Shown piece by piece: positions 321-56,892 of a stretch of DNA of 64,000 bases. Source of the DNA: Plasmopara viticola (taxonomy: Eukaryota > Oomycota > Peronosporomycetes > Peronosporales > Peronosporaceae); the NCBI GenBank assembly GCA_001695595.3, contig MBPM02000008.1, positions 1,664,297 to 1,728,296 of the forward strand, given 5' to 3'. A program made the position numbers and the translations under genes. Numbering within the stretch: the stretch's first letter is position 1; every line of letters starts with the position of its first letter. The notes under the pieces are model-generated. The model saw only the letters and a list, made by a program, of their open reading frames with translations, was not told the origin of the DNA and did no database searches.

Positions 321-579
321 TGAAAGTTGTCATGTATTTAATCTTAACACAACCTATACCTTCTCGGCTTGGCTAGGATTTCTACATTTACATTTTTAGT
401 CTGAATATTCTTTTTCGTCTTGTTATTGTCTTTTTCTTGATCGGGGTCGGAAATATTTCGCTTGGGGCCGTCCTCTCCCCAAGTCTGGTTGATTACGAAG
501 TTTGTCCGGTGTGGGGCTCGAACCCGCACCACACACCGTGAGGACCAGAAGCATAATCCACTAACCCACGCCACCGGGT
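321..579 (-). mobile_element. tRNA-headed SINE, copy 1 (reference description)
   Basis: An insert of 259 bp between a 16-base tRNA stub (305-320) and an intact tRNA at 580. Read on the minus strand, it opens with a degenerate tRNA-like head (about 578 down to 504). The head has a good B box (514-524, GGTTCGAGCCC), a D stem GCGT/ATGC with an enlarged D loop, and a poorly paired anticodon arm readable as CCT or CTC depending on register. An unrelated A-rich body follows. The end reads GACAACTTTCAA, matching the LINE 3' ends in this window. It has no reverse transcriptase, so it must be moved in trans. Confidence 0.88.
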
Positions 580-2027: not shown

Positions 2028-2289
2028 TGAAAGTTGTCATGTATTTAATCTTAACACAACCTATACCTTCTCGGCTTGGCTAGGATTTCTACATTTACAT
2101 TTTTAGTCTGAATATTCTTTTTCGTCTTGTTATTGTCTTTTTCTTGATCGGGGTCGGAAATATTTCGCTTGGGGCCGTCCTCTCCCCAAGTCTGGTTGAT
2201 TACGTAATTTGTCCGATGTGAGGCTCGAACCCGCACCACACACCGTGAGGACCAGAAGCATAATCCACTAACCCACGCCACCGGGTCAA
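2028..2289 (-). mobile_element. tRNA-headed SINE, copy 2
   Basis: 262 bp, with left tRNA stub at 2012-2027. The T-arm differs from the other copies (GATGTGAG for GGTGTGGG on the plus strand). The right junction is gggtcaa followed by the tRNA. Confidence 0.88.
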
Positions 2290-2786: not shown

Positions 2787-3047
2787 TGAAAGTTGTCATG
2801 TATTTAATCTTAACACAACCTATACCTTCTCGGCTTGGCTAGGATTTCTACATTTACATTTTTTAATCTGAAGATTCTTTTTCGTCTTGTTATTGTCTTA
2901 TTCTTGATCGGGGTCGGAAATATTTCGCTTGGGGCCGTCCTCTCCCAAGTCTGGTTGATTACGAAGTTTGTCCGGTGTGGGGCTCGAACCCGCACCACAC
3001 ACCGTGAGGACCAGAAGCATAATCCACTAACCCACGCCACCGGGTCT
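2787..3047 (-). mobile_element. tRNA-headed SINE, copy 3
   Basis: 261 bp, left stub 2771-2786. It occupies the monomer immediately after the one holding copy 2. It lacks one base in the gtcctctccc(c)aag stretch. Confidence 0.88.
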
Positions 3048-3539: not shown

Positions 3540-3798
3540 TGAAAGTTGTCATGTATTTAATCTTAACACAACCTATACCTTCTCGGCTTGGCTAGGATTT
3601 CTACATTTACATTTTTATTCTGAAGATTCTTTTTCGTCTTGTTATTGTCTTTTTCTTGATCGGGGTCGGAAATATTTCGCTTGGGCCGTCCTCTCCCCAA
3701 GTCTGGTTGATTACGAAGTTTGTCCGGTGTGGGGCTCGAACCCGCACCACACACCGTGAGGACCAGAAGCATAATCCACTAACCACGCCACCGGGTCT
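3540..3798 (-). mobile_element. tRNA-headed SINE, copy 4
   Basis: 259 bp, left stub 3524-3539. It lies in the third consecutive SINE-bearing monomer and has single-base losses in the cttggggcc and aacccacg stretches. Confidence 0.88.
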
Positions 3799-6181: not shown

Positions 6182-6443
6182 TGAAAGTTGTCATGTATTT
6201 AATCTTAACACAACCTATACCTTCTCGGCTTGGCTAGGATTTCTACATTTACATTTATAGTCTGAAGATTCTTTTTCGTCTTGTTATTGTCTTTTTCTTG
6301 ATCGGGGTCGGAAATATTTCGCTTGGGGCCGTCCTCTCCCCAAGTCTGGTTGATTACGAAGTTTGTCCGGTGTGGGGCTCGAACCCGCACCACACACCGT
6401 GAGGACCAGAAGCATAATCCACTAACCCACGCCACCGGGTCTT
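6182..6443 (-). mobile_element. tRNA-headed SINE, copy 5
   Basis: 262 bp, left stub 6166-6181. The right junction reads gggtc before ttgcccc, so the target duplication may be 18 bp here. It sits in a monomer of the short pre-tRNA spacer type (tgtgttttagcaatt). Confidence 0.88.
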
Positions 6444-7411: not shown

Positions 7412-7674
7412 TGAAAGTTGTCATGTATTTAATCTTAACACAACCTATACCTTCTCGGCTTGGCTAGGATTTCTACATTTACATTTTTTAGTCTGAAGAT
7501 TCTTTTTCGTCTTGTTATTGTCTTTTTCTTGATCGGGGTCGGAAATATTTCGCTTGGGGCCGTCCTCTCCCCAAGTCTGGTTGATTACGAAGTTTGTCCG
7601 GTGTGGGGCTCGAACCCGCACCACACACCGTGAGGACCAGAAGCATAATCCACTAACCCACGCCACCGGGTCTT
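7412..7674 (-). mobile_element. tRNA-headed SINE, copy 6
   Basis: 263 bp, left stub 7396-7411. One extra T lies in the body T run compared with copy 1; otherwise nearly identical. Confidence 0.88.
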
Positions 7675-9942: not shown

Positions 9943-10205
9943 TAAAAGTTGTCATGTATTTAATCTTAACACAACCTATACCTTCTCGGCTTGGCTAGGA
10001 TTTCTACATTTACATTTTTTAGTCTGAAGATTCTTTTTCGTCTTGTTATTGTCTTTTTCTTGATCGGGGTCGGAAATATTTCGCTTGGGGCCGTCCTCTC
10101 CCCAAGTCTGGTTGATTACGAAGTTTGTCCGGTGTGGGGCTCGAACCCGCACCACACACCGTGAGGACCAGAAGCATAATCCACTAACCCACGCCACCGG
10201 GTCTT
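9943..10205 (-). mobile_element. tRNA-headed SINE, copy 7
   Basis: 263 bp, left stub 9927-9942 with a C-to-T change (tatagttcagt). Its left edge reads ttaaaagttg, closer to the LINE edge (ttaaagtt) than the usual tgaaagttg. It lies one monomer before LINE copy 1. Confidence 0.88.
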
Positions 10206-10679: not shown

Positions 10680-10695
10680 GCCCCTATAGCTCAGT
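10680..10695 (+). repeat. Target-site duplication, left of LINE copy 1
   Basis: gcccctatagctcagt is tRNA-Thr bases 1-16. The same 16 bases recur right of the element at 19518-19533 as the start of an intact tRNA. Adding the shared preceding T could make the duplication 17 bp. Confidence 0.92.
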
Positions 10696-10704
10696 TTAAA
10701 GTTT

Positions 10705-10725
10705 GTCTATTACGTTTAAATAGAC
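10705..10725 (-). other. 3'-terminal hairpin of LINE copy 1
   Basis: A perfect 7-bp stem GTCTATT/AATAGAC with a 7-base loop lies 9 bases from the insertion junction. The equivalent stem in LINE copy 2 is GTCTATA/TATAGAC, a paired change that keeps the helix. In LINE-SINE pairs with a shared 3' tail (eel UnaL2/UnaSINE1), such a hairpin is the site recognised by reverse transcriptase; I infer the same role here. Confidence 0.7.
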
Positions 10726-10895
10726 TAAGTTGCTTCTCAATCTACCGGTAACTGACTAATCTTACTGATATAAATACTAATTTACACTTTTTTGGAGTTG
10801 TACCTTTTATGTAAGCGACGGTCCTTGAATCTTACCTGAACAGATGTTTTGTTGTCGATGTTTCTTGGTGGAGGTTGTTATGCCGAAAAATTCAA

Positions 10896-10968
10896 GATCA
10901 ACTGGCTCAAACGGTAGAGCACTCGCTTTCCAAGCGGGAGGTCGTGGGTTCAAACCCCACAACGTACA
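10896..10968 (+). pseudogene. tRNA-Gly(TCC)-like sequence inside the LINE 3' UTR
   Basis: Plus-strand cloverleaf parts are clear: D stem GCTC/GAGC, anticodon stem CTCGC/GCGGG with loop TTTCCAA (anticodon TCC), and T arm GTGGG/CCCAC with loop TTCAAAC. The acceptor strands GATCAAC and AACGTAC hardly pair, so this is not a normal tRNA gene. It is antisense to the LINE and also present in copy 3, so it belongs to the family. It may be a captured tRNA or an old SINE head with usable Pol III boxes. Confidence 0.6.
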
Positions 10969-11199
10969 GCATTTGATTCCGGATCGCTTCCTCCATAACG
11001 TAGAATGGCCGATATGGGTTTCACAACCCTAGCCGAACAAACTTGGAGAGGGTGAGAAAGATCCTCCGCGCGTACACTAAGTCCCATTGGCGGAGTCCCT
11101 TCTGTCCAGTCTCCCGGGTACACTGTACCTTAAGAGGCAAAGACAAAACGGCTCCAGGTGTACAGAGGTCGGATCACTCATCAGAGTTTCCTTTTTAAC

Positions 11200-11210
11200 T
11201 TTTTTTTTTT
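11200..11210 (-). other. Internal A-rich tract after the ORF3 stop
   Basis: Eleven T on the plus strand, i.e. poly(A) in the LINE sense, a few bases after the ORF3 stop codon but ~500 bp before the real 3' end. LINE copies 2 and 3 also have such a tract just after their last stop codon. Confidence 0.8.
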
Positions 11211-11213
11211 CTT

Positions 11214-12457
11214 TTAAGTCACCTTCACCCTGCGGATGAACTTGATCATGCGCAGCCATGTCTGATCGCCGATGCCGGAGTCAATGCCGTCTTCGCGCAC
11301 GATGATGTCTTCGTCGTCTGTCACTTCCATCGCGAAGCAATGTGCACGCATGTTCCGCTTGAATGCACCGACGATGTATACTCCCGGCTTCAGCACTCGC
11401 ACGCCTTGCTCGTTTGGGAGGACTCGAGTCGCGAAAGCCATGGGGCCCGCACCATCGCCGTCAAAGAAGTTGACCCGGAGTGTCTTGAGGTCGAGCTTAA
11501 TCCCGCACTTGGTGACGCCCTTGGCGCAGTAGCGCAGGATCTCGCTTGTTTTGTGAAAGCCTTGTTGTAGCTGGACCTTCGCAGCAAGCGCGTCTGTCAG
11601 GTACTCCGACCAGATTGCCGGGAGAAGGGCGCCCTGTTCTTGGTAGCCAAGCAGCTCGAGCGCCATCTGAAAGGCATGTGGCACGCAGGAGTTGTCTTCA
11701 TTGTCAGCGACAGCTGCGAATGCTCGGGCGTTGCGGCTGATGAATGCTTGGAACGTCACCTCCCGGTTGGGATACCACTCGAGATACGAGTCGAGCGTCT
11801 CGACCAGGTTAGTATTGCCGTCTTCGATCAGCTGGTCTCGTGGCAGCCAGATCGGGTCGGCGCCGTCGCTCCAAGTCACACGATACTCGAAGCCGCTGGA
11901 CACCTCCCGTCGGTTGTCGATGCAGTCAATCTCGCCGACCTCAACGCTGGGCTTGGATCGCCGAGTGCGCTTGACTGGGCGCATAGCTTCGAGTTGGTCG
12001 GCTGTGCGCTTGCGGAGCGTGTAGCCGCACACAGTTGTTGTCGCAGCAAGGTCGAGAACAGGAGGCGGGGAAAACGAGGATGCTGGAGTCAGGATGAAAG
12101 GCCTGTCGTCGATACCGTCGTCGCTGTTGCCGTCGTCGCTGTGCTGTTGTTATTGCTTGCACCATCGTCGTCTCCTTCGCCATCTTCTTCGCCGCACTGT
12201 GAGGCTGGTGGTACGTCGGACGGCCCATCCATGGTGTCGTCGACCAGCCCCTCCTCTTCCATCGGTTTCTCAACCCTACCCTCACCGCTCTTGTCCGAGT
12301 TCTCTGCCTGGCTTTCCTCTGGGCTCATGCCCCCCGTCCCCCTTTCGGGTGCAGCCGGAGACAATACAGTCCGCAGAGGGAAGTCAGGTTTCGAACCGGT
12401 TAAGGCGGCTTGGGTAAAGTCGACGGGGCCGATGGCGTGGAGGTGCTGAGGGGACAT
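11214..12457 (-). CDS. LINE copy 1 ORF3: chromodomain plus putative cysteine protease
   Basis: A third LINE protein downstream of reverse transcriptase. The likely start is the ATG at 12457 (MSPQHLHAIG), 131 bases after the RT stop; an intact version would be about 414 residues. An acidic, Ser/Thr-rich N-terminal part is followed by a continuous frame from about 12140 to the stop. Counting from the Met-like codon at 12032, residues about 32-86 look like a chromodomain (FEYRVTWSDG, then IWLPRDQL). Residues about 108-250 look like a papain-fold protease, with candidate Cys116 (DNSCVPHAF), His231 (RAHCFAME) and Asp248. Copy 1 lacks one G near 12140 compared with copy 3, which breaks the frame. 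The protease call is by motif only. Some LINEs (Dualen) carry an OTU-type protease; a chromodomain could tether the element to chromatin. Confidence 0.72.
12313..12384 (-). ncRNA. Conserved 72-nt structured element inside ORF3 of LINE copy 1
   Basis: The 59-base core (from gggctcatg to cgcagagg) differs by one base from two copies in the 3' UTR of the diverged LINE copy 2. It is bracketed by complementary arms CTTTCCTCTG and CAGAGGGAAG. Inside, GGGC/GCCC, CCC/GGG and CGGA/UCCG hairpins can form. It also encodes PLRTVLSPAAPERG in the ORF3 frame. Function unknown; RNA structure is inferred. Confidence 0.55.
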
Positions 12458-12587
12458 CTTGGTTCGCTTGTGCAGGTGCGGGAAAATTCGGAAATGAGAC
12501 GTTTGGACTTGTGGCGGTCTGTGGCGGAAATTAATAACTCTCAAACAGCATAATGTCGACTCGATTTTCTCGATCGGAGGACTTCGG

Positions 12588-15500
12588 TCATAAACTTGAC
12601 TTAACACTGGTGATGTTCGGTTGCCGGTCTGCAAAGTCACCGAATGCCGAATGAGTCTTCATCGCTTCGATCACTCGTTGTAGCCCGCGACTCTCTTCCC
12701 GATCGTACAACCGCCGTTGGAAGAACCGAACGTGCGCACAGAACGTCGAGAAGATCACCGCGAGCGCCGGAGCTACTGGTGTCGGCTGTCTTCCGTCGAA
12801 CAGACACCTGTTGCGATCCGTCCAAATCGTGTGTAGCGTCTCAGCTCGGAGAACGTGCCACACGTCGTGTACTACGTCAGCGCACTCGTCCCAGTCTTCG
12901 CGGACGCGCAGCTTGTTCCCGAGAGCGATGTCAAGCCAGCCAGAGCGAGAGACGAAGAAAGGCGAGACGAGTATCAAGACCTGCCGCCACAACTGCGATG
13001 CGGGCATGCAGTCGAAGAACAGGTGTTGTTCCGTCTCGATTGCTTCGCAGCTGTCGCGCACACAGATGCGGATGCCCGGACGTGATGGTTCCAGGAACCA
13101 AAAGCGTGAGCGCACGGGAAGCAGCCGGAACGCGAGTCGAAACTGCAAGTCGTCGAAGACCGGCAGCAAGATCTTACTCAGTCTCCTGCCGTGTTTGACG
13201 AATGCCTTGATTCGGTGTTCGTTGACACGCTGAGAGAAGATGGTCATCGGATGTGGCTTGCTCGGCAGCTTGGGTGTCCAGATGACTTGCAGAAGCGCCG
13301 ATCTCGGGATCGCCGGGATCAAGCACTTCCTCGTGCCACTCGTGCATCCCAAGTGCGGGAGTAGACGCTGCGAGCTGGTGTTTGACGAGTTTCGCACCAG
13401 CTGCAGTGCACCAAGTCGATCCACAATCTGCGTTGCCTCGCCATACAGTGCACGTAGCCACTTTGCTTGTACACCCGGCAGAACCGGTACAAATGTGAAG
13501 TCGATGTGGCGTTGGACGAAGTCTTCACAGGTCGGCCACGCCTCACCCTCGAGTCGGAAGTCGGCAAGCGACCGCAGATTAAACACACGCGAGACATGCA
13601 GACGAAAGCTGCGCTGTGGCTCGGGAACCATGCCGAGACATCGTCGATGTGCTTCTGTTGTTGCTGTCCGCATGGCCTTCTCATAGTGCAGCTCTGCGTC
13701 TGCATGGAACCAGATCGGCTGATTTAGACCATACATTGCGCGATCGTTCGGCGGCAGGCCGCGCCACGTAATCTCCCAGCGCGACTTGTACCACCACGTC
13801 CACGTTGCTCTCCACCATATTGACACTTGACTCCATCCGATGAGCTTGCCGTGTCGAAGCGGAGAGATTGTGAGGAAATCCAGCGCGGTGCGTCTGCCGT
13901 AGCAAGGCATCACGGATGTCAGTAACTCAACGCTCGCAGTTGCCCAGTTCCTCACATGGGTCGCACTCGCCGCGTGCATGAACTGCAGCAGTAGTGCGAG
14001 ACGCTGACACCTAAGCTGCGCGTCGAGTCTTGGAATTCCCAATCCACCGTCACTGCGCCGCTGGTGCAAGAACTCACTCGGGATGAGCTGTACATGCTTT
14101 GCATCGCGGTCGTGTTTGCGGCATAAGACGAAGCGGTTGAGCATCGACTGCCAGCGTCGCACAACTGTCTGTGGAATTGCTACATGCTGTGTGTAGTGCC
14201 ACAGGCGCGAGAGCACCATCGTCTGTGCTACTAGGAGTCGACCACGAAGCGTGCGCGCGCGTCGGTACCAAGCCTTAAAGCCGTCGTAAAAGCGCTGATC
14301 AAGAAACTCGATGATCATGTTGTTTAGAGGCGCTTGTCCGAATGGAATGCCCAAGTATTTGACCGTGTCCGTGCGCGCGAGTACATGGACGCCAGGCATC
14401 GCAGGGCATACGACATTCCGATTCAGCGCCAGCAGCACAGACTTGGACAAGTTGAGTTTTGCACCAGAGCCTTGGCAATACTCGTCCACGGACGCAAGTT
14501 GCTCCTGGAGGTTCACGATCGAGCTGGCGAGAAGCGTCGAGTCGTCCGCGAAAAATACACTTGTCACCGTGTGGTCTGCGTTCAGGCACAGGCCGTGTTC
14601 CTCGTGCGCGCGCAGCATGTTCCCGAGCGGCTTGATCGTGAGCACGAAGAGTAACGCCGAGAGCGGATCGCCTTGCTTCACGCCGCGTGTCGGATGTAAT
14701 GCTGGCTGGACGTTGCCGTTGATCAGCAAGTGCGCTTGGGGGTTCGTGTACAACAGTCGGATCCACTTGATGAAGCTCTGTCCAAAGCCCATGCGCTTAA
14801 GCAGCCGGAACATGTAGTCCCAGTTGACGCGGTCGAAGGCCTTCTGAAAGTCCAAGAATAGCGCGTATGCCTCTTCGTCACGGTTTGTGACGAGTTCTTG
14901 TAGGTCGGATAGGAAGCGCACGTGGTGATGGATCGAGCGGCCTTTGACAAATCCCTTCTGGTCCGGATGGATCAAATCAAGGATTACGCCCTGCAGCCGA
15001 AACGTAAGCGCTTTCGAAAGCACCTTCACATCGACTGGTATGAGCGCGATCGGCCGGTAATTGCTAGGCTCGGCGCGTGAGCCCTTTTTGTGGAGTAGCA
15101 CGACGGCCGACTTGCGCTGAGACGCCAGGAGCTCACCGCGTCGGAGTCGGTCTGAGAACACAATCGCCAAGCACTCGCCAAACACGTCGGGCGCCACCTG
15201 GTAGAAACCAGCGGTCAAGCCATCCATTCCCGGCGATGACGTCGCCTTCATATGCTTGATCGCACCTGCGAGGTCTGCTGCTGTCAACTCAGCGTCGAGC
15301 ATCTCGCGGTCAGAGTCCGCGACAAAGCACGAGACTGAGTCGAGAAGCTTGCGCTGCATGGCGTCATTGGGTGGATGAGCTCGTCCTCCAGGGCTGTCAA
15401 GGTCTCCCATTTCAGACCCCCAGTGCTCCAGGAAGCGGAGCGAGATCTCGTGCGGATTCGTCGAGACACTTCCACTTGGTGTCACAACTTCCTCGATCGA

Positions 15501-15614
15501 GACTCGTCGCAAGCTCGTGTCCAGCGGACGGAAGAAGTGCTTCGTGGACTTCTCGGAGTTGGCGGCCTGGAAGTCGAACGCAGTGTCTTGATTGTACTGA
15601 CTCGTCCGCATCAC
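12588..15614 (-). CDS. LINE copy 1 ORF2b: reverse transcriptase
   Basis: A 1008-residue frame whose ATG overlaps the endonuclease stop in TGATG (the first Met shown is a GTG one codon earlier). It copies element RNA at the nicked target. Motifs in order: SSPGMDG (about 127-132), NYRPIAL (185), DQKGFVKGRS (218-227), motif A LDFQKAFD with Asp255, motif B GVKQGDPLS (311-319), catalytic FADD (355-358), motif D KLNLSKS, motif E KYLGIP (419-424). A C-x4-C-x7-H-x4-C knuckle (C851, C856, H864, C869, ending HLFFDC) is the zf-RVT type. There is no RNase H. The architecture fits the L1/Tx1 superfamily. In LINE copy 2 this domain is fused in frame to the endonuclease. Confidence 0.95.
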   Translation of the reverse strand: MMRTSQYNQDTAFDFQAANSEKSTKHFFRPLDTSLRRVSIEEVVTPSGSVSTNPHEISLRFLEHWGSEMGDLDSPGGRAHPPNDAMQRKLLDSVSCFVADSDREMLDAELTAADLAGAIKHMKATSSPGMDGLTAGFYQVAPDVFGECLAIVFSDRLRRGELLASQRKSAVVLLHKKGSRAEPSNYRPIALIPVDVKVLSKALTFRLQGVILDLIHPDQKGFVKGRSIHHHVRFLSDLQELVTNRDEEAYALFLDFQKAFDRVNWDYMFRLLKRMGFGQSFIKWIRLLYTNPQAHLLINGNVQPALHPTRGVKQGDPLSALLFVLTIKPLGNMLRAHEEHGLCLNADHTVTSVFFADDSTLLASSIVNLQEQLASVDEYCQGSGAKLNLSKSVLLALNRNVVCPAMPGVHVLARTDTVKYLGIPFGQAPLNNMIIEFLDQRFYDGFKAWYRRARTLRGRLLVAQTMVLSRLWHYTQHVAIPQTVVRRWQSMLNRFVLCRKHDRDAKHVQLIPSEFLHQRRSDGGLGIPRLDAQLRCQRLALLLQFMHAASATHVRNWATASVELLTSVMPCYGRRTALDFLTISPLRHGKLIGWSQVSIWWRATWTWWYKSRWEITWRGLPPNDRAMYGLNQPIWFHADAELHYEKAMRTATTEAHRRCLGMVPEPQRSFRLHVSRVFNLRSLADFRLEGEAWPTCEDFVQRHIDFTFVPVLPGVQAKWLRALYGEATQIVDRLGALQLVRNSSNTSSQRLLPHLGCTSGTRKCLIPAIPRSALLQVIWTPKLPSKPHPMTIFSQRVNEHRIKAFVKHGRRLSKILLPVFDDLQFRLAFRLLPVRSRFWFLEPSRPGIRICVRDSCEAIETEQHLFFDCMPASQLWRQVLILVSPFFVSRSGWLDIALGNKLRVREDWDECADVVHDVWHVLRAETLHTIWTDRNRCLFDGRQPTPVAPALAVIFSTFCAHVRFFQRRLYDREESRGLQRVIEAMKTHSAFGDFADRQPNITSVKSSL

Positions 15615-16663
15615 CGTCTCTTGTAGTTGCTCATAGCTTCGTCGAAGAGCTCGCGGTCAATGTCACTCGACGACACGCGGAACCGCGCGGCAGCTTGATC
15701 CAGCGCGACGCGGGAGCCCTCGATGGCTTGTGAGTCCTGCTGTCTGAGCTTCTTCTGCATGTCTTGTAGCTGCTTCTTGATGCTCGCCTTCCACTGGTCC
15801 CAGATCTTACCCGGGTTCTCCACGCTGCGCAGTTGATCACGTATTATCTCTGCTTCCTTCTCGATCGCCGAAACGACCTGTGGGAAGTCTAGCAGGTACC
15901 GTGGGAACTTCCAGTATCCACGACCGTGAAGCTGCGTGCTGGAGCGGAGCGAGACGCTGTGCGCAAGGTGGTCGCCGGCATGCTTGGGCAAGAAGTACTT
16001 GGACTTGTCGTAAAAGCGGTCACAGAACCGTTCCGACATCAAGATGTAGTCCAGCCGGTTCTTCCGTGGAAGCGGACCGGTGAATACGTCATTGTGGATC
16101 CGCCAGGCGTCGACGACCCCAAGCTTTGCGAGCCACTCCAGACAGCTGGAACGACTTGAGTCGTAGCGCAGATCGGGCGTAGAGCAGTCTAGTCGCGGAT
16201 CAAGCGGTGTGTTCAGGTCCCCGAGCACTAAGTGCGTCGCGTCATCCTCAAATCCATCGGTCGACAGACTCATGAAGAATTGTTGCTTCTCTTGGCGATC
16301 AACTGGTGCGTACACGTTGTGAATGTAGACGGGAGCAGGCTCGACGGTCACTTTCACGACGAGGTACCTCCCTGACACTGAAAGGCGCGATATCTCAGCA
16401 GCCGTGTCGAAGCCGGGGAAATCGGAGCGTAATAGCGTCAGGACTCCATTGCATCGACCACGCGTGGGTCGACCCAGTAACGCGTTTGGGTCATTTACGA
16501 AGATTTTGTGCGTGAAGCTCGAGTCGAGGTGGAAATTGAAGGTTGAGAGGTGTTGTGCGTCGCCAAACTTGGTTTCTTGGACGCACGACACCGAATGCTT
16601 TGAGAGGAGGTTGTCAATGAAAAGGTGGCCGTTTTTCTTGATGCCGTTGGTGTTCACGGTCAT
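15611..16663 (-). CDS. LINE copy 1 ORF2a: APE-type endonuclease
   Basis: A 350-residue endonuclease/exonuclease/phosphatase domain that would nick the tRNA-Thr target and prime reverse transcription. Expected APE residues are seen: Asn6 in NTNG, Glu30 in QETK, NVYAP (116-120), GDLN (148-151, Asp149 and Asn151), LDYI (Asp205), and GDH (230-232) for the catalytic His. It lacks three residues at about 192 (9 bases at ~16089) present in both other LINEs. The frame ends in TGA that overlaps the RT ATG. The frame is open upstream to the ORF1 stop, so this Met may not be the true start; it lies 44 bases downstream of ORF1. Confidence 0.92.
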   Translation of the reverse strand: MTVNTNGIKKNGHLFIDNLLSKHSVSCVQETKFGDAQHLSTFNFHLDSSFTHKIFVNDPNALLGRPTRGRCNGVLTLLRSDFPGFDTAAEISRLSVSGRYLVVKVTVEPAPVYIHNVYAPVDRQEKQQFFMSLSTDGFEDDATHLVLGDLNTPLDPRLDCSTPDLRYDSSRSSCLEWLAKLGVVDAWRIHNDVFTGPLPRKNRLDYILMSERFCDRFYDKSKYFLPKHAGDHLAHSVSLRSSTQLHGRGYWKFPRYLLDFPQVVSAIEKEAEIIRDQLRSVENPGKIWDQWKASIKKQLQDMQKKLRQQDSQAIEGSRVALDQAAARFRVSSSDIDRELFDEAMSNYKRR

Positions 16664-16706
16664 CAGAGAGACGGCATTCCAGGCGTGCTGTGCAGCCGAG
16701 GCAACT

Positions 16707-17795
16707 TTAGCAACGGGTGGACAAGCCTCCCGCTACCGTCATTGCGTGGCCGTCAGCATCCACGCAGACCTTCAGCACCGACGAGTCGACCGGGTAGTAA
16801 CCTTCGAGCTTTCGCAGCGCCTCTAGGTCGTCGAGCAAGTGACCTTGCCACTGTACCTCACTCCACTGCTGCAAGCAGTGTGAGCCAAGGTCTGACCGCA
16901 GCAGTCGCAGCAGCGTGTTTGGGTGCAGGAAACGCATGTGGTGCGCCGGGATCCACTCAACCGGCTGGCCCGTAACGTACTGGACCCAATGGTCGTTCTT
17001 AAACAGCGTCGGTGCGATCGACATGAGTGCGAGCTCAAACATGCCGAGCGCCTTGGACGCACGCGACAGCTCTGTGATCGCGTCTGTGTGGGTCCACCAC
17101 TTGGCACACTCCTTGAAGATGTCTTGACGCTTCGGCAACATCGACATCCCCATGACGCGCTTCCACTTCGTCACAAATGTTGTGTCTTCGTCAGGATACG
17201 TCGCGCACAACACGCGGTTGATCGCGTGAAGCTGGGCGAGCTCCTCGATCGAGTTGCCGTCACCATCCATCGCGATCGATAGCGCGCTGTTGAACGCGAG
17301 CGGACAAGCAGCGGCCGACTTCACGATGTGGTCGGGGTTTGTCGCGTTCTCGATGAGCTTCACCATACTGGGAACCTTTGCGTCTGCTTCTGTGAGACGG
17401 TCCGGGAGAATGTTGAGCAGTGCTGTATTCTCATCGTTGATCATCGACTCGGTCACCTCAAGTATCGGCGACGCCTTAGCTGCCTTCTTGATCCTTGTGT
17501 GGTGCTTCTCAACGAAGAATGCCGACTCCGCTGCGGTCGTCAGCGCCTCGGGACGCTTCACATTGGTCGGCACGACCTGCTTGCGCACGCCGTGCTTCTT
17601 GTTCGCGGTGGCGTTTTTGACCACGAGATCGACTTCCATAGACTGGAGTGCTTCGAAGTAGTTTGCAGTCGCGACGCCATCGAGGGGCTGCGGTTGCTGC
17701 TTCGTGAGCAAAGCAGTGAAGTCGATGTCACTGCGTCTACGCCTCTTTTTATTCTGGACCGTCGAGAATACGTCCGCGTTGCTGCCATTCATCAA
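16707..17795 (-). CDS. LINE copy 1 ORF1, C-terminal part
   Basis: 362 residues matching the C-terminal half of the uninterrupted 847-residue ORF1 of LINE copy 2 (shared QPLDGVATANYF, DENTALLN, NATNPDHI, VEWIPAHH and QWQGHLLD). I recognise no known domain. The first ATG is shown, but the homology continues upstream in this frame to the G9 tract at 17837-17845. This is therefore the second half of one split ORF1, not an independent gene. It ends with TAA; the ORF2 frame, offset by one base, runs across the stop. Confidence 0.85.
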   Translation of the reverse strand: MMNGSNADVFSTVQNKKRRRRSDIDFTALLTKQQPQPLDGVATANYFEALQSMEVDLVVKNATANKKHGVRKQVVPTNVKRPEALTTAAESAFFVEKHHTRIKKAAKASPILEVTESMINDENTALLNILPDRLTEADAKVPSMVKLIENATNPDHIVKSAAACPLAFNSALSIAMDGDGNSIEELAQLHAINRVLCATYPDEDTTFVTKWKRVMGMSMLPKRQDIFKECAKWWTHTDAITELSRASKALGMFELALMSIAPTLFKNDHWVQYVTGQPVEWIPAHHMRFLHPNTLLRLLRSDLGSHCLQQWSEVQWQGHLLDDLEALRKLEGYYPVDSSVLKVCVDADGHAMTVAGGLSTRC

Positions 17796-19108
17796 GAGTA
17801 AGATCGGAGCTTTCGTCTTGCCGTTAGGACTGCCGGGGGGGGGAATTTTCCGTTGGATCCTTCGAACGTTGAGATCGACAGAGCGTCGTCTTGGGTGGTT
17901 GGGATCTTCGCGAGCTGGTTGGTGCCAGGAGGCGAGCCATGCGGAGCTCCGCTTTGGAGCTTCCCATTGCGCTTCTTGGACTCCTCAACTGCCTTCTGCA
18001 GCGAGGTCATTTGCTTGCCGGTTGACGCCGCTTGCGTAGGGATCGTTGGCATAGCTTGTTGATGTTTCTTGGGTTGCTTCGACGCCTGTGACGACGACGA
18101 CGGCGACTCGACCGGAGGGTCTGGACGCGGGAAGACTTCGTCGCTTGTGAGCAGGTCGATGCCGTGGAGCGAGCGATAACCATACGGTAGACGCTCGGAC
18201 TGAAACAATGCGCTCTTGCCGTGAGCTGGGTGCAGCTTGTTGTCGAACAGGATCTGGTCACATACCGAGCCGTTCACCATCAGCTGTAGTGGACACGTGT
18301 TCGAGAGGAAGTACACTCGCCACGTCGCCGAAGTGATGCCGGTAGCCATATTTACCTCGCGGAACGTGTCATAGATCGGCTTGCACCCAAGGATGAAGAG
18401 CCGATGCAGGATCGCGTCCGTGTTAGTGTCCGAATCGACGTTGGAAATGTCGAGGAAGTACTTGCCTGCGAGGACGTCGAACTCCTTGAACGAGAAGACA
18501 CCGCCCAAGATGTTCACTTTTGTGCGCTCAAGCTTGAGGCAGGCTTCCTTTGTCTTGATCTTTATGCGTAAATTACCGCCAGGGAGCTTCGACACTTGGC
18601 CGATCGCATGCTCGCTGTACAGGTTCTCAAGCGCGTCGTTACCGTGGTGCGAACCAGCCAGCGACGCCATGATCTTCTGTAGCGGAGTCTTCGCGAAAGT
18701 GCGACCCGTGTCAATGACCATGTCGTAACGCGCGCGGGGCAATGCGTACGGCCGCGCTTGGTCCATCTGCGAGGCGATGAATGACCAGCCACGCCCAGCA
18801 GCGTACTGGCGCTCGATCGACTCGATGTCACACGCGAGCGGTTTTGGCGTCTCGATGCGGCTTCTATTCGCTTCGACTTTGGCTTCGTCGCGACGGATGG
18901 TCTCCTGCTCTCGCAGCAGTGCGGCCATCGTTGGACGCTTGTCGATAGGTGTAGTCAACGCTTTAACAGTTGGAGGTAACTCCATCGGCTCGTCATTGTG
19001 ATCTGCGATCACAGTCGTGCTGCAGTCCACGGCGTTGGCGGGGGAAAGAACAACAGCAGACACGGCAGCAGCAGCGACGTTAGTGACAGAAATCGGAGGC
19101 GCATCCAT
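17792..19108 (-). CDS. LINE copy 1 ORF1, N-terminal part (RRM-like)
   Basis: 438 residues, probably the RNA-binding ORF1 protein that packages element RNA. A low-complexity start is followed by a region shared with copy 2 (TPKPLA, IERQYA, LPRARYDMVI). Two stretches look like RRM folds: about 127-208 (YDMVIDTG to GGVFSFKEF) and about 215-285 (YFLDISNVDSDTNT to TSATWRVYF). No CCHC knuckle is present. The frame leaves the homology at a run of nine G (17837-17845 on the plus strand) and stops soon after; one more base in the run would join it to the C-terminal part. A Ser/Pro-rich open stretch upstream (19439-19080) in another frame may be a further N-terminal portion lost by frameshift. Confidence 0.88.
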   Translation of the reverse strand: MDAPPISVTNVAAAAVSAVVLSPANAVDCSTTVIADHNDEPMELPPTVKALTTPIDKRPTMAALLREQETIRRDEAKVEANRSRIETPKPLACDIESIERQYAAGRGWSFIASQMDQARPYALPRARYDMVIDTGRTFAKTPLQKIMASLAGSHHGNDALENLYSEHAIGQVSKLPGGNLRIKIKTKEACLKLERTKVNILGGVFSFKEFDVLAGKYFLDISNVDSDTNTDAILHRLFILGCKPIYDTFREVNMATGITSATWRVYFLSNTCPLQLMVNGSVCDQILFDNKLHPAHGKSALFQSERLPYGYRSLHGIDLLTSDEVFPRPDPPVESPSSSSQASKQPKKHQQAMPTIPTQAASTGKQMTSLQKAVEESKKRNGKLQSGAPHGSPPGTNQLAKIPTTQDDALSISTFEGSNGKFPPPAVLTARRKLRSYS

Positions 19109-19517
19109 CGGCTCGTCTTCCGAGTTTTAAGCGCGGGTGCAGGCGGCTCGGAGGGCGCGGACGAGGGGGCGACAAAGGTACGAGAGGCGACGGTGGCGCA
19201 GCTGGATGGGTGGCTGGCGAGGCGTCATCAGAGGAACTAGAGCCGGTTGGAGAATCCGAGGGAGATGGACTTCTCGAGGTACTCAGATTGCTGGGTGCCG
19301 ACTGGATTCTTGATGCAGAGACAGGCGAAGATCCGGCTGCGTCGCGTGGCGACTGGACAGCAGATGGCGAGGAGGCGTAGGAAGGGGGGTTGCGAAACTT
19401 CCTGCGCTTGATTTTCCATCTGTACTGGCTAGAGAGCAAAAAGATGGCTGGGAAAGAGGGTGAGGGTTGGGTTCTTCTGAAGAGTCGACTTGTGGGGTTG
19501 CCGGCAAATTGAGAAGT
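19109..19517 (-). promoter_or_regulatory. LINE copy 1 5' UTR with conserved 5' terminus
   Basis: The outermost ~49 bases match the 5' end of LINE copy 2 with about four differences. Shared pieces are agtcgactt and gccggcaaattgagaagt at the junction (plus strand). Conservation beyond the coding region suggests an internal promoter or RNA element; no known promoter motif is recognised. Confidence 0.6.
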
Positions 19518-19589
19518 GCCCCTATAGCTCAGTGGTAGAGCACCCGCTTAGTAAGCGGAAGGTCGGTAGTTCAATCCTGCCTGGGGGCA
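19518..19589 (+). tRNA. tRNA-Thr(AGT)
   Basis: Consensus gene. Its first 16 bases are the right target duplication of LINE copy 1, so it is intact although its 5' flank is now the LINE 5' end. Confidence 0.95.
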
Positions 19590-19996
19590 TTTCTCAGACA
19601 ATTATAACAAAACTCGTTCATCTCGCCCTCAGCAATCGTGAGCAGTGTGTCTAATAATTTCATTGTTATTTATGCGTTATCAATAATACACTATCAAACC
19701 TCCATTACGGCGTAAGATAAAATATAGACCTTTTTTAGCTAGCTTGACTAGTAGAGGGATACACCCAAGATACTTCCGTCTCTATTAGCATTTAACTTTA
19801 TCGGTGGTGCCCTTTTAAGCGTACCTCCTTTTGAAACTCCCGATTTCTCCGATAAAGTTAGAACTATAGCGGTAAGTTATCAGCAAAATTCGGGCTCCCC
19901 ATAAAACCCAAATAAGTATACCCAGGCCATAGCGATGGCGTGCAGACTGTTTCGTGTGATGGCAATGTAGATAGTGTGTTGTCGTCGGCAGCAATT

Positions 19997-20068
19997 GCCC
20001 CTATAGCTCAGTGGTAGAGCACCCGCTTAGTAAGCGGAAGGTCGGTAGTTCAATCCTGCCTGGGGGCA
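19997..20068 (+). tRNA. tRNA-Thr(AGT) (reference description)
   Basis: 72 nt including discriminator A. Acceptor GCCCCTA pairs with TGGGGGC (T6-G67 wobble). D stem is GCTC/GAGC. The anticodon stem is CCCGC/GCGGA with one mismatch at the top, and loop TTAGTAA has U33 and anticodon AGT at 34-36. T stem is GGTAG/CTGCC with loop TTCAATC. A34 would be read as inosine, decoding ACU, ACC and ACA. CCA is not encoded. The A box TAGCTCAGTGG matches the Pol III consensus and GTTCAATCC serves as B box. The LINE/SINE insertion point is T16^G17, inside the A box. Confidence 0.98.
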
Positions 20069-20210
20069 TTTCTCAGACAATTATAACAAAACTCGTTCAT
20101 CTCGCCCTCAGCAATCGTGAGCAGTGTGTCTAATAATTTCATTGCTCTATTTATGCGTTATCAATAATACACTATCAACCTCCATTACGGCGTAAGATAA
20201 AATATAGACC

Positions 20211-40078: not shown

Positions 40079-40094
40079 GCCCCTATAGCTCAGT
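40079..40094 (+). repeat. Target-site duplication, left of LINE copy 2
   Basis: tRNA-Thr bases 1-16, repeated at 47685-47700 on the far side of the element. The cut point is the same as for LINE copies 1 and 3. Confidence 0.92.
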
Positions 40095-40102
40095 TTAAAG
40101 TT

Positions 40103-40123
40103 GTCTATATTAATTTTATAGAC
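40103..40123 (-). other. 3'-terminal hairpin of LINE copy 2
   Basis: Stem GTCTATA/TATAGAC with a 7-base loop, 8 bases from the junction. The stem's last base pair differs from LINE copy 1 on both strands, which supports a maintained helix. Confidence 0.7.
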
Positions 40124-40473
40124 GATTGACTAATCAACTTGCCTGACCTAATATCTAATTTGAACTAATTCTGTGTAATGTACATAATCTAGTGTAAAGT
40201 TGGTGTGTAGGGTTTCGGTTCTACATTTTGCCCTGTTTTGAATCAGAAAATGGCGTGCTGGACCCTCCACGCGGGTCGAAATTTCTCGATAGCTACTGCG
40301 AGTTAAGTGCTGGTGCTTCGGCCATATGTGCAGCATATATATAGCCAGGTGTGTACCAACTGGCTGCACGTGTAGTTCACTCTGGCGCCGAAACGCACGA
40401 CTGGTCCTCTAGCTCACTGTCGCTTCGTTCCGCCTCCAGACCGTCACTTTCCTCGAGCCGGCTCTAAAGCGGG

Positions 40474-40545
40474 CTCTCCTCAGGGCTCATGCCCCCCGTC
40501 CCCCTTTCGGGTGCAGCCGGAGACAACACAGTCCGCAGAGGAGAG
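40474..40545 (-). ncRNA. Conserved structured element, LINE copy 2, unit 1
   Basis: The 59-base core differs at one position from that in LINE copy 1. The arms are CTCTCCTC and GAGGAGAG, a perfect 8-bp helix extendable to 11 bp with one G-U. The arm bases differ from family A but still pair. Confidence 0.55.
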
Positions 40546-40614
40546 CTCGGTTTAAGCCGGCGAGTCGAGCTTCAGTATGGAGGGGTCCGGGACTTTCCTC
40601 AAGCCGGCATTTAA

Positions 40615-40695
40615 GTGAACTCCCTCTGGGCTCATGCCCCCCGTCCCCCTTTCGGGTGCAGCCGGAGACAACACAGTCCGCAGAGGAGAGTCCAC
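40615..40695 (-). ncRNA. Conserved structured element, LINE copy 2, unit 2
   Basis: The same core, bracketed by GTGAACTCCCTCTG and CAGAGGAGAGTCCAC, which pair with one bulge and one mismatch. Confidence 0.55.
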
Positions 40696-40819
40696 TTTTA
40701 GCCGGCGAGTACTGGAGTTGCTGGACGCTTGAGCCTTAGCCGGCAAATTCGAAAGTGAATAATAAAACTGGTGGCGGACAAAAATCCCTCCAAACAGCAT
40801 ACCATGCTATCTGAAAGGA

Positions 40820-40832
40820 TTTTTTTTTTTTT
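40820..40832 (-). other. Internal poly(A) tract after the ORF2 stop
   Basis: Thirteen T on the plus strand, ten bases beyond the ORF2 stop and over 700 bp from the 3' end of the element. Confidence 0.8.
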
Positions 40833-40842
40833 GGACACCCAG

Positions 40843-42732
40843 TTAGACTGTCTGGCGGACACTGGTGATACCCGGATGGAGATCAGTGAAGTTGCCGAAA
40901 GCCGGCTGGGACTGCATCTTGCGCACAATTTTGCTCAGGGTTAGCTTGTCATCGACCCCATACAAGCGCCTATAAAAGTGTCGAACGTGCGCCGCAAATG
41001 TCGTAAATACCATTTGTAGCGCCGGGATCGGTGGCGTAGGCTGTCTCCCGTCGAACAAACACCGATTGCGATCCGTCCACAGAAAATGAAGCGTCACTGC
41101 GCGGAGGACATGCCATACGTCATCTGCGACCGCCTCATGGTCCTTCCATTCATCGCGCACTCGCATCCTTCGTGCAAGCGCGATGTCGAGCCACGTTGGC
41201 TTCTGGTTGAAGAGCCTGCTCGCGATGTCAAGCACATGTAGCCACAAGTCCGACGCAAGCGAGCAGTCAAAGAACAGATGTTGTTCCGACTCAATTGCAT
41301 TACAATTATCGCGCACACATGTGCGAATGCCAGTATTTGTGTGCTCCAAAAACCAGAAGCGCGACCGGACTGGCAGTAGTCGGAATGCCAATCTGAACTG
41401 GAGGTCCTCAAAGATTGGAAGCAGTACCTTCCGCAGTCGCTTGCCTCGCTTTGCATGCTCTCTTACGAATCTGACGTCGATATTATCCCAATAGACCTTC
41501 ATCGGATGCGGCTTTATTGGTGATTTTGGCTTCCATACGATACGCAGAACCGCCGAGCGTGAGATCGCAGGAAATAATTGCAGCTTCTCGTCGCTGAAAA
41601 CTCCGACGTATGGTATCAATCTCGGGCTACCTCTGGCAGATATCGAAAAAGCAGCTCCACATGATTTTAGCCGATCCACGATCTGCGTCGCCTCGTTATA
41701 CAATACGCGTAGCCACTTGATTTGTTGACCCGGCGTGATGTCCTTCAGCGTAAAGTCAATGTGTCGATCCACGAAGTCGACTTGCGACGGCCACGTGCGC
41801 TGACCGCGCATAAAGTCAGCAAGCGACCGAAGACCGAATACGCGAGAAATGTGTAGCCGAAAGCTTCGTTGTGGCTCTGGCACCATACCAATGCAGCGCC
41901 GATGCGCCAAAGTCGTGCCATCACGCATTCGTTGTTCGTAGTGAAGACTGGCGTCTGAGTGAAACCAGATCGGCTGGAAAAGTGCATAGTCGATGCGCTC
42001 GTTGGACGGCAAGTCGTGCCACGTCATTTCCCAGCTTGAGCGGTGCCACCAGGTCCAAGTTGTCTTCCACCACGTCGACGTACGACTCCACTTGATCATC
42101 TCGCCGTGGCGCTGTGGGGATATTGTAAGCAGATCGAGCGCATGGCATTTGCTGTACCGAGGAAGGATTGACCTCAATAACTCTGTACTAGCAGTCGTCC
42201 ACCAACGTCCGGTAGACGCTCGAGCCTGTGCTACGAAGTGCATCAGAAGCACAAAGCGTTGCCGCTTAAGCTGTGCTTCAAGACTTGGAATACCAATACC
42301 ACCGTCCGCTCGTCGAAGATAAAGAAATTCATTTGGAATCAGCTGTATGTGTGTCGCGCCGCGGTCGTGCTTGCGACTCAGCACAAATCGGTTTAGCGTC
42401 GACTGCCATCTTTTGACGACCGCCAACGGAATTGACACGTGCTGTGTGCAGTGCCATAAGCGCGACAGAACCATGGTTTGAGCAACCAAGAGACGCCCGC
42501 GAAGCGTTCGAGCGCGACGGTACCACAGTTTGAAGCCTTCATAAAAGCGCTGGTCAAGCGACACGAGGATGCGATCGTCGACGGGTGACTGGCTGAAAGG
42601 AATGCCAAGATACTTGACCGACTCCGAGCGTCCGAGGACGCGTACACCGGGCATGTGCGGGCAGTCTTGATTCCGGTTCAGAGCCAGCAGCACCGACTTT
42701 GACAAGTTCAGCCTCGCCCCGAGCCTTGGCAA
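40843..42732 (-). CDS. LINE copy 2 ORF2, C-terminal part (RT thumb to zf-RVT)
   Basis: Continuation of the reverse transcriptase after a one-base deletion at about 42715-42721 (gcctcgccccgagcc, where copy 1 has one more base). The true homology begins with ARLNLSKS (motif D); the first residues are out-of-frame sequence. It contains motif E KYLGIPFS, the RRARTLRGRLLVAQTMVLSRL region and the knuckle CVRDNC...HLFFDC. It ends directly before a poly(A) tract; no ORF3 follows. Confidence 0.9.
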   Translation of the reverse strand: MPRLGARLNLSKSVLLALNRNQDCPHMPGVRVLGRSESVKYLGIPFSQSPVDDRILVSLDQRFYEGFKLWYRRARTLRGRLLVAQTMVLSRLWHCTQHVSIPLAVVKRWQSTLNRFVLSRKHDRGATHIQLIPNEFLYLRRADGGIGIPSLEAQLKRQRFVLLMHFVAQARASTGRWWTTASTELLRSILPRYSKCHALDLLTISPQRHGEMIKWSRTSTWWKTTWTWWHRSSWEMTWHDLPSNERIDYALFQPIWFHSDASLHYEQRMRDGTTLAHRRCIGMVPEPQRSFRLHISRVFGLRSLADFMRGQRTWPSQVDFVDRHIDFTLKDITPGQQIKWLRVLYNEATQIVDRLKSCGAAFSISARGSPRLIPYVGVFSDEKLQLFPAISRSAVLRIVWKPKSPIKPHPMKVYWDNIDVRFVREHAKRGKRLRKVLLPIFEDLQFRLAFRLLPVRSRFWFLEHTNTGIRTCVRDNCNAIESEQHLFFDCSLASDLWLHVLDIASRLFNQKPTWLDIALARRMRVRDEWKDHEAVADDVWHVLRAVTLHFLWTDRNRCLFDGRQPTPPIPALQMVFTTFAAHVRHFYRRLYGVDDKLTLSKIVRKMQSQPAFGNFTDLHPGITSVRQTV

Positions 42733-44969: not shown

Positions 44970-44970
44970 C

Positions 44971-47514: not shown

Positions 47515-47684
47515 AGCCGGGACTGCACAGGCAGTGGAGGTGGCAGGTCGAGAAGACGGTGCGACAGCTGGATTTTCATCACAGAAAAAGAACAGCAGAA
47601 GGCTTAAGAAGCTTGAAGCAGGAAAGAGATGGGATGGGTTCTTCCGAAAAGTCGACTTGAGGGGTAGCCGGCAAATTGAGAAGT
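47515..47684 (-). promoter_or_regulatory. LINE copy 2 5' UTR
   Basis: 170 bases. The outer ~49 are shared with LINE copy 1 (gggttcttc, agtcgactt, gccggcaaattgagaagt on the plus strand). Confidence 0.6.
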
Positions 47685-47756
47685 GCCCCTATAGCTCAGT
47701 GGTAGAGCACCCGCTTAGTAAGCGGAAGGTCGGTAGTTCAATCCTGCCTGGGGGCA
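47685..47756 (+). tRNA. tRNA-Thr(AGT)
   Basis: Consensus gene whose first 16 bases are the right target duplication of LINE copy 2. Confidence 0.95.
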
Positions 47757-49615: not shown

Positions 49616-49874
49616 TGAAAGTTGTTCATGTATTAATCTTAACACAACCTATACCTTCTCGGCTTGGCTAGGATTTCTACATTTACATTTATAGTCTGAA
49701 GATTCTTTTTCGTCTTGTTATTGTCTTTTTCTTGATCGGGGTCGGAAATATTTCGCTTGGGCCGTCCTCTCCCCAAGTCTGGTTGATTACGAAGTTTGTC
49801 CGGTGTGGGGCTCGAACCCGCACCACACACCGTGAGGACCAGAAGCATAATCCACTAATCCACGCCACCGGTCT
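49616..49874 (-). mobile_element. tRNA-headed SINE, copy 8
   Basis: 259 bp. The left stub (49600-49615) is altered to gccccctagcttcagt. The right edge lacks a G (ccaccggtct). Confidence 0.86.
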
Positions 49875-50360: not shown

Positions 50361-50617
50361 TGAAAGTTGTCATGTATTAAATCTTAACACAACCTATACC
50401 TTCTCGGCTTGGCTAGGATTTCTACATTTACATTTATAGTCTGAAGATTCTTTTTCGTCTTGTTATTGTCTTTTTCTTGATCGGGGTGGAAATATTTCGC
50501 TTGGGGCCGTCCTCTCCCAAGTCTGGTTGATTACGAAGTTTGTCCGGTGTGGGGCTCGAACCCGACCACACACCGTGAGGACCAGAAGCATAATCCACTA
50601 ACCACGCCACGGGTCTT
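50361..50617 (-). mobile_element. tRNA-headed SINE, copy 9
   Basis: 257 bp. The left stub is 15 bases (50346-50360, one C lost). A few single-base losses lie in the head and body. Confidence 0.87.
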
Positions 50618-52527: not shown

Positions 52528-52789
52528 TGAAAGTTGTCATGTATTTAATCTTAACACAACCTATACCTTCTCGGCTTGGCTAGGATTTCTACATTTACAT
52601 TTATAGTCTGAAGATTCTTTTTCGTCTTGTTATTGTCTTTTTCTTGATCGGGGTCGGAAATATTTCGCTTGGGGCCGTCCTCTCCCCAAGTCTGGTTGAT
52701 TACGAAGTTTGTCCGGTGTGGGGCTCGAACCCGCACCACACACCGTGAGGACCAGAAGCATAATCCACTAACCCACGCCACCGGGTCTT
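52528..52789 (-). mobile_element. tRNA-headed SINE, copy 10
   Basis: 262 bp, left stub 52512-52527. The best-preserved copy of array C and nearly the same as copy 5. Confidence 0.88.
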
Positions 52790-53735: not shown

Positions 53736-53996
53736 TGAAAGTTGTCATGTATTTAATCTTAACACAACCTATACTTCTCGGCTTGGCTAGGATTTCTACA
53801 TTTACATTTATAGTCTGAAGATTCTTTTTCGTCTTGTTATTGTCTTTTTCTTGATCGGGGTCGGAAATATTTCGCTTGGGGCCGTCCTCTCCCCAAGTCT
53901 GGTTGATTACGAAGTTTGTCCGGTGTGGGGCTCGAACCCGCACCACATACCGTGAGGACCAGAAGCATAATCCACTAACCCACGCCACCGGGTCTT
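53736..53996 (-). mobile_element. tRNA-headed SINE, copy 11
   Basis: 261 bp, left stub 53720-53735. One C-to-T change in the head (accacatacc) and one C lost in the tail region. Confidence 0.87.
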
Positions 53997-56867: not shown

Positions 56868-56883
56868 GCCCCTATAGCTCAGT
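56868..56883 (+). repeat. Left target-site duplication of LINE copy 3
   Basis: tRNA-Thr bases 1-16. The matching right copy lies beyond the window. Confidence 0.9.
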
Positions 56884-56892
56884 TTAAAGTTT

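Follow-up and report, generated by a model that had tools for sequence, protein, structure and literature searches.

LINE retrotransposons at a fixed point of the A box in many different tRNA genes of Plasmopara viticola

The stretch of DNA analysed here (the window) comprises 64,000 nucleotides of Plasmopara viticola contig MBPM02000008.1, and its right edge is the end of that contig (C8). It carries three long interspersed nuclear elements (LINEs) on the minus strand and 13 copies of a short interspersed nuclear element (SINE), whose common insertion base within tRNA-Thr genes is the T ending the 16-mer GCCCCTATAGCTCAGT, and it is the choice of this site by these elements that concerns us. 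The window is a tandem array with units mostly of 458–484 bp, each containing one plus-strand tRNA-Thr(AGT) gene, and ARAGORN makes 74 tRNA calls in it, two of them without an assigned identity. Because it is an array of tRNA-Thr units, the window holds 88 occurrences of GCCCCTATAGCTCAGT at up to two mismatches, compared to 0.02 expected from shuffled sequence. All wider searches were made in a single genome of 92,937,831 bases in 358 contigs, in which fetched loci are cited below by L numbers and contigs by C numbers.

The 3' ends of all three LINEs follow GCCCCTATAGCTCAGT, with junctions at 10695/10696, 40094/40095 and 56883/56884, exactly where a preliminary description of the window had placed them. 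Both visible 5' ends abut a second copy of GCCCCTATAGCTCAGT that begins an intact tRNA-Thr(AGT) gene (called by ARAGORN at 19517 and 47684), again in agreement with that description, which correctly reported three LINEs at one tRNA base but overlooked the 13 SINE copies, the rebuilding of the tRNA gene and the stacking of elements. LINEs A1 and A2 are 99% identical over 7.1 kb, while A1 and B share 71% DNA identity (main aligned stretch 4 kb), and A-type copies elsewhere in the genome are 72–73% identical to B in endonuclease and reverse transcriptase (EN-RT) protein sequence. The LINE tails in the window are TTAAAGTTTGTC and TTAAAGTTGTC. The parts of the three LINEs, with an example of an unoccupied target, are as follows (ORF, open reading frame; RT, reverse transcriptase).

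10680..10695, plus strand: 3'-side copy of the 16-bp target duplication (tRNA-Thr bases 1–16) of LINE A1
10696..19517, minus strand: LINE A1, both ends present, antisense to the tRNA genes
10696..10726, minus strand: LINE A 3' hairpin and tail, GTCTATT..AATAGAC plus AAACTTTAA, a form common to other LINE families and the SINE
11214..12149, minus strand: ORF3 of LINE A1, with predicted chromodomain-like and papain-fold cysteine-peptidase-like parts
12588..15656, minus strand: RT part of LINE A1 ORF2 (RVT_1, E 7.6e-37)
15611..16732, minus strand: apurinic-type endonuclease part of LINE A1 ORF2 (Exo_endo_phos), in a different frame from the RT part
16707..19126, minus strand: ORF1 region of LINE A1, in two frames (17792–19126 and 16707–17984), no Pfam match
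19518..19533, plus strand: 5'-side duplication copy of LINE A1, opening a complete tRNA-Thr gene (ARAGORN 19517–19590)
19996..20069, plus strand: unoccupied target, tRNA-Thr(AGT) in the array (ARAGORN)
40079..40094, plus strand: 3'-side target duplication of LINE B
40095..47684, minus strand: LINE B, both ends present
42708..44984, minus strand: LINE B endonuclease and first part of RT
44971..47688, minus strand: LINE B ORF1 region, an open frame of 905 codons, no Pfam or NCBIfam match
47685..47700, plus strand: 5'-side target duplication of LINE B, opening a tRNA-Thr gene (ARAGORN 47684–47757)
56868..56883, plus strand: 3'-side target duplication of LINE A2
56884..64000, minus strand: LINE A2, running off the end of the contig and window

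ORF2 consists of an Exo_endo_phos endonuclease upstream of an RVT_1 reverse transcriptase (Pfam). Among LINEs with a solved structure, to which the comparison of L1 with R2 is confined, the RT part matches human L1 ORF2p best (PDB, 5.8e-46), with R2 and R2-like proteins at 1.1e-23 or weaker, and the best PDB matches of the endonuclease part are L1 ORF2p and the L1 endonuclease. Further features in keeping with LINEs are the 16-bp target-site duplication and ends that are unlike each other and form no long terminal repeat (LTR). Judged by these features, the elements are non-LTR retrotransposons, L1-like in the wide sense, with an apurinic-type endonuclease; membership of the NeSL/R2/Utopia type was rejected because this domain was found instead, although no dedicated look was taken for a further C-terminal nuclease. 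The named protein relatives among the matches listed are from Globisporangium splendens (best, at 72–74%), a record labelled 'Plasmo' (74%) and Peronospora, with Phytophthora, Aphanomyces and others more distant, followed by Closterium and plant proteins. Our tree places two Globisporangium proteins, P0004 and P0006, among the families of this genome, which makes it likely that the LINE families predate the split of Globisporangium from the host genus. It is conceivable, if somewhat doubtful, that we are dealing with a new target acquired by a classical member of the Tx1 clade, to which Dewa of zebrafish belongs and which combines RNA-gene specificity with an apurinic-type endonuclease. The endonuclease type, the L1-like RT and the multicopy RNA-gene target would all suit such an element, but the named close relatives among the listed matches are oomycete proteins and then those of Closterium and plants.

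A protein search of the genome with the RT found at least 62 matches, from 100 down to 54% identical to family B; as only 59 of 948 first-look candidates were scored, this number is a lower bound and biased towards close copies. Element 3' ends abut a tRNA A box, at nucleotide 15/16, in 62 of the 64 cases fetched. These 62 tails (60 LINE, two SINE) were located through RT position, the 3' untranslated region (UTR) or SINE similarity, and are made up of a first fetched set with 40 of 40 tails at A boxes (38 LINE and two SINE, 39 of them antisense), a second with 18 of 18, and L080, L081, L096 and L094; L220 and L221 bring the total to 64. Included is L057, which lies in reversed orientation in the D loop of a tRNA-Leu gene, after CAG of the opposite strand. 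Two loci (L080 and L081) were located partly through the list of sites, and without both the count is 60 of 62, while loci found by the site search itself (L079, L082–L085, L087–L090, L092, L093) were left out of the tally as circular. L086 and L091 proved to be point variants of tRNA genes rather than insertions, L095 ends at a contig start and was not counted, and the flank of L070 is only 8 bases long. Four of 33 rows of one match list (C245:49239 and C306:3 at contig ends, and two on C8) and, besides two window rows, two of 16 rows of the other (C6:1442550 and C344:1) were not fetched. In a pattern search of the genome the class I LINE tail matched 113 times, compared to 18 for a reversed-pattern control, and ACTGAG stands directly after 81 of the 113 (control 0), with L220 and L221 among these. 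Of the 32 places without it, at least 12 are tRNA sites already fetched, in which the extra A is missing or a small change is present, and the remainder, which were not read, are about as numerous as the control predicts.

Compared with the complete tRNA genes that stand at 5' ends or close by, the target 15-mers at these tails match tRNA-Met, Lys, Tyr, Thr (three kinds), Ala, Ile, Phe, Cys, Arg, Leu and Ser and span at least 11 amino acids and 18 anticodons; the target of L162 (GCTCTCGTAGCTCAG) received no tRNA identity by this comparison. Class I families account for the insertions in Thr, Tyr, Met, Ile, Ala, Phe, Lys, Cys and Arg genes. The preliminary description had proposed a lineage specific to the A box of tRNA-Thr, of which the A box stands as target but the restriction to Thr does not. 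Its statement that diverged families share the site holds down to 54% EN-RT identity, and the prevalence of copies at unrelated sites, which it had named as the result that would count against it, did not occur among the copies examined.

LINE B, in a tRNA-Thr gene on C8, is 99.94% identical over 5.27 kb to a copy on C55 that lies in a tRNA-Tyr gene, and other pairs of ~5.27 kb in different tRNA genes agree at 100% (Ala/Phe) or 99.92% (Tyr/Arg), with copies in Tyr, Arg and Leu genes 99.8–99.9% alike over the same length. Near-identical copies at non-homologous tRNA loci indicate recent movement and a specificity for the shared A box rather than for a given tRNA; on this evidence, one element enters many different tRNA genes. 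Alternatively, unequal crossing-over and gene conversion within the tRNA arrays, rather than repeated insertion at the same base, might be the main way in which the copies multiplied, and indeed tandem arrays are present and some junctions are shared by descent (L103/L127/L144; L125/L126). However, the same elements occupy tRNA genes that are not homologous and lie on many contigs, separate copies at one base exist for several families, and the SINE copies of the window differ in their added 5' bases (AAG, AG, none or TTG), which favours separate insertions, so that we regard spreading of this kind as a very improbable source of the pattern.

Two insertions show an additional peculiarity at the 3' junction. 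In a tRNA-Arg gene (L033/L056/L134) the base next to the tail is not the one that the tRNA has across the element (CAG versus CAA), and in a tRNA-Leu gene (L034/L057) a C stands beside the tail, in both cases as if the last letter were derived from the element RNA.

The first 18 bases of the element occur 97 times in the genome at up to one mismatch and 71 times exactly; two of these exact 5' ends lie in the window, 60 were fetched (L097–L156) and nine were not. A tRNA start called by ARAGORN, with introns allowed, lies within 0–2 nucleotides of 43 of the 60, the 5' end being placed at base 1 of the tRNA in 36, base 2 in four and base 3 in three. Genes labelled Pro (L131, L132) and Ser (L135) by ARAGORN look like altered Tyr and Thr genes. 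The duplication corresponds to tRNA bases 1–16, and most examined elements have a complete tRNA gene beside their 5' end, the two being head to head; given the extent of the duplication, most examined insertions therefore rebuild the whole tRNA gene. At ten junctions (L059, L062, L065/L107, L105, L106, L121, L140/L160, L143, L162 and L213) elements are stacked with one 16-mer between them, as expected if the second element entered the rebuilt gene. The two ends together are those of target-specific LINEs, with 62 of 64 tails at A boxes and 43 of 60 5' ends at tRNA starts plus six in stacks. The 5' end itself, ACTTCTCAATTTGCC, is conserved between families that are only 54–60% alike in EN-RT. 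A string one letter off the LINE 5' end, ACTTCCTAATTTGCCGGC, is found at places without tRNA genes, and the six fetched (L214–L219) lie in unrelated sequence.

Nine RT rows (three on C96, two on C112 and one each on C268, C72, C211 and C288) form a clade, here class II, with targets in tRNA-Leu (tag, caa, cag) and tRNA-Ser (cga, aga) genes, where all nine tails follow ..GGCCGAG or ..GCCCGAG. Each of the eight 5' regions fetched shows ACTTCTCAATTTGCC beside a Leu or Ser tRNA with 0–2 extra bases, and both the position in the tRNA (unchanged) and the stagger (still 16–18 bases) are those of the other families. In a tree labelled with nine class II and 33 class I rows, 16 further rows being unlabelled, the class II group is monophyletic with a support of 100/100 and is recovered in each of 200 bootstrap trees. 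The sister rows of this group (C233, C48) are at CTCAG sites, and families at 54–60% RT identity split into those targeting class II genes and those targeting CTCAG. The simplest reading is that specificity changed once, from CTCAGT to CCGAGT.

The SINE is ~262 bp long and its 13 window copies share the insertion base of the LINEs, with the flanking A box altered in two. All are on the minus strand.

321..579, minus strand: SINE copy
2028..2289, minus strand: SINE copy, extra 5' bases TTG before the common start
2787..3047, minus strand: SINE copy used as query
3540..3798, minus strand: SINE copy
6182..6443, minus strand: SINE copy
7412..7674, minus strand: SINE copy
9943..10205, minus strand: SINE copy
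49616..49874, minus strand: SINE copy, flanking A box altered
50361..50617, minus strand: SINE copy
52528..52789, minus strand: SINE copy
53736..53996, minus strand: SINE copy
54951..55208, minus strand: SINE copy
56147..56401, minus strand: SINE copy, flanking A box altered

Seen from the target, the SINE tail TGAAAGTTGTC resembles the LINE tails given above, and the SINE 3' end AACTTTCA is the tail seen in LINE family C (L080, L081, L096). The SINE carries GGTTCGAGCCC, which fits the B box motif GTTCRANNC, and has no Rfam tRNA match at E ≤ 1. Exact SINE tails stand directly before ACTGAGC[CT] at 124 of 137 places in the genome, and of the other 13, 11 were read, seven of which are tRNA A boxes with a point change. 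The similarity search for the SINE scored 40 of 258 candidates. An insert of ~1.06 kb with a related tail was also seen in a tRNA-Thr unit (L079, contig C133, ~65–91 kb), and regularly spaced sites on that contig, where one unit was read, suggest many successive units.

Across these families the 3' junction with the coding strand falls after ..CTCAG(T), or after ..CCGAG(T) for one clade, and in most examined copies the 5' junction lies at the first base of the mature tRNA, ±2. We consider it very probable that this is a LINE lineage with an apurinic-type endonuclease that inserts at a fixed point of the A box in tRNA genes for many amino acids, where a coding-strand nick is predicted after nucleotide 15/16 and would prime the copying of the RNA. 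Target-primed reverse transcription is the established mechanism of LINEs. In the present case the endonuclease, which would supply most of the specificity, is predicted to nick the tRNA-coding strand after nucleotide 15 or 16, leaving a 3' OH at ..CTCAG(T) from which the element RNA would be reverse transcribed, with a second nick expected at tRNA base 1, 16 bases upstream. A hairpin lies beside the short tail in 10 of 11 folded tails, with differing stem sequences (the exception is the 1-kb non-autonomous unit), and is thus a likely start signal for the RT, which would recognise hairpin and tail together; the SINE would borrow the LINE proteins. As most examined insertions leave a complete tRNA gene beside the new copy, presumably still expressed and so at low cost to the host, the element would be likely to spread with little harm.

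Several observations weigh against this account. No tRNA was called at 17 of the 60 fetched 5' ends, of which six are stacks (the 16-mer followed by another element), four look by eye like decayed or unusual tRNAs from base 1 (L100, L111, L145, L156) and seven are truncated or rearranged (L103, L125, L126, L127, L138, L144, L151). A family F copy on C48 (L180) has neither a tRNA nor the 5' motif in the 1.2 kb fetched, and two LINE tails, L220 and L221, lie outside any visible tRNA gene, yet directly before ACTGAG. Four of the 11 odd SINE tails that were read are away from any tRNA: in L202 and L203 only 10–11 of the last 20 letters match the SINE, while L206 and L212, which have one common flank, match it at 15–16 of the 20 letters before the tail end, are followed by AGTGAGC and may be old off-tRNA relatives of the SINE. 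Many copies are part of tandem arrays or segmental duplicates and cannot be counted as independent events, and more distant copies, possibly at other places, are outside the view of a search that scored 59 of 948 candidates. Finally, since tail and target share letters, the position of the nick is ambiguous by one or two bases.

The retention of ACTGAG at L220 and L221 suggests either that the endonuclease reads CTCAGT directly or that the RNA brought these letters from its source. A different route to the same sites would be for the elements to aim at the RNA polymerase III (Pol III) machinery, TFIIIC or TFIIIB on active tRNA genes, with the endonuclease cutting a CAG-like step at a fixed distance. 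The target is indeed a promoter element bound by TFIIIC, and CTCAGT is by simple arithmetic expected tens of thousands of times by chance in 93 Mb, too often for near-exclusive use of tRNA genes. There is also a precedent, as part of PMC5391098 reports that TRE5-A of Dictyostelium needs the B box and that its ORF1 protein binds a TFIIIB subunit in vitro. However, the junction is precise to the base and obeys the letters of the A box, a separate clade tracks the other A-box spelling, CCGAGT in Leu and Ser genes, both off-tRNA LINE tails keep ACTGAG, and no insertion was seen at a fixed distance outside a tRNA gene in the fetched set. Aiming at Pol III factors is therefore possible, though in our view the less probable basis of the specificity.

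A more far-reaching proposal can be put forward, although only tentatively. This would be an addition-only retrotransposon, which cuts a promoter string common to tRNA genes with a stagger equal to the distance to base 1 and whose 5' end ACTTCTCAATTTGCC serves as a ready-made tRNA leader, so that each full-length insertion might return a working tRNA gene and a fresh target. The very large tRNA arrays of oomycetes and the LINE would in that case sustain one another, and the A box would be a landing code that was re-read once, from CTCAGT to CCGAGT.

Other parts of the LINEs show further features. A structured RNA motif with the core CCCGAAAGGG.GACGGG.GGC..GAGCC is present in the 3' region of families A, B and class II (window ~12300–12400 and 40446–40710, both minus strand; L157, L158, L161, L164–L166) and is doubled in B and several class II copies. 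Across 10 sequences, 16 of its 29 predicted pairs keep pairing through two-sided changes, and the A and B regions have no Rfam match at E ≤ 1. The 3' UTRs of families A and C contain, ~40–50 nucleotides from the 3' end, 9 and 11 bases complementary to the element 5' end, and the 3' UTR of LINE A includes an antisense tRNA-like stretch (window 10903–10960, plus strand; Rfam tRNA, 46 bits). Relatives of the third ORF of LINE A (window 11214–12149 and 57402–58274, minus strand) occur in other oomycetes and include two that are named chromo domain-containing; the A1 copy of this ORF has no Pfam match. A structure model of the A2 copy (mean predicted local distance difference test score, pLDDT, 66.5) gave weak fold matches, and C134 and H249 are invariant in the alignment; the model suggests a protein with chromodomain-like and papain-like-peptidase-like parts.

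LINEs in single tRNA genes are already in print. Passages of PMC4640811 describe NeSL-1_TV (tRNA-Pro), LIN15_SM (tRNA-Arg) and LIN25_SM (tRNA-Glu) as tRNA-specific non-LTR retrotransposons and assign a restriction-like endonuclease to target-specific LINEs outside the Tx1 and R1 clades. These three belong to the NeSL/R5/LIN lineage and use one tRNA each, whereas the elements reported here have an apurinic-type endonuclease and use the tRNAs of many amino acids. The same passages present Utopia, of oomycetes and others, as site-specific families long kept in a multicopy RNA gene, with an occasional tandem insertion (in a wasp) that recalls the stacks seen here; however, its target is the U2 small nuclear RNA gene, its endonuclease is restriction-like and the disrupted U2 genes are without the first 38 bp. 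Dewa, too, is a LINE linked to tRNA genes, but lies in the tRNA-Leu spacer (portions of PMC3706591). TRE5-A is, like the present elements, a LINE aimed at many kinds of tRNA gene (83% of tRNA positions), with the A box thought to set the insertion distance, but it inserts ~47 bp upstream of the gene, apparently via Pol III factors (PMC5391098); a TRE5/TRE3 type, which requires insertion outside the tRNA gene, was rejected for insertions that lie inside it. Several Dada families enter tRNA nucleotides 8–13, inside the A box (in Perkinsus, TAGCTC then AG; excerpts of PMC8869645 and PMC3706591). They are DNA transposons with a DDE transposase and 6–7-bp duplications, and since RT, endonuclease and a 16-bp duplication were found here, a Dada type was likewise rejected. 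In Perkinsus each Dada family keeps to its own tRNA genes, and the insertion is described as disrupting the gene (parts of PMC8869645). Literature searches outside subscription papers and Repbase reports found no apurinic-type LINE inside tRNA genes and no A-box-general or gene-rebuilding LINE; what appears to be new is thus an apurinic-type, A-box-general, gene-rebuilding lineage.

Published site-specific LINEs are mostly bound to one gene, whereas the target here is a promoter motif common to many genes, and a target duplication that rebuilds the entered gene is a way to use essential genes without breaking them. The switch between CTCAGT and CCGAGT in sister clades makes the reading of DNA by an apurinic-type endonuclease directly testable, and the lineage is accompanied by a matching SINE. 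Giant tRNA arrays are known in Phytophthora infestans, and some oomycetes have thousands of tRNA genes (PMC9584435), an abundance on whose causes the lineage described here may bear.

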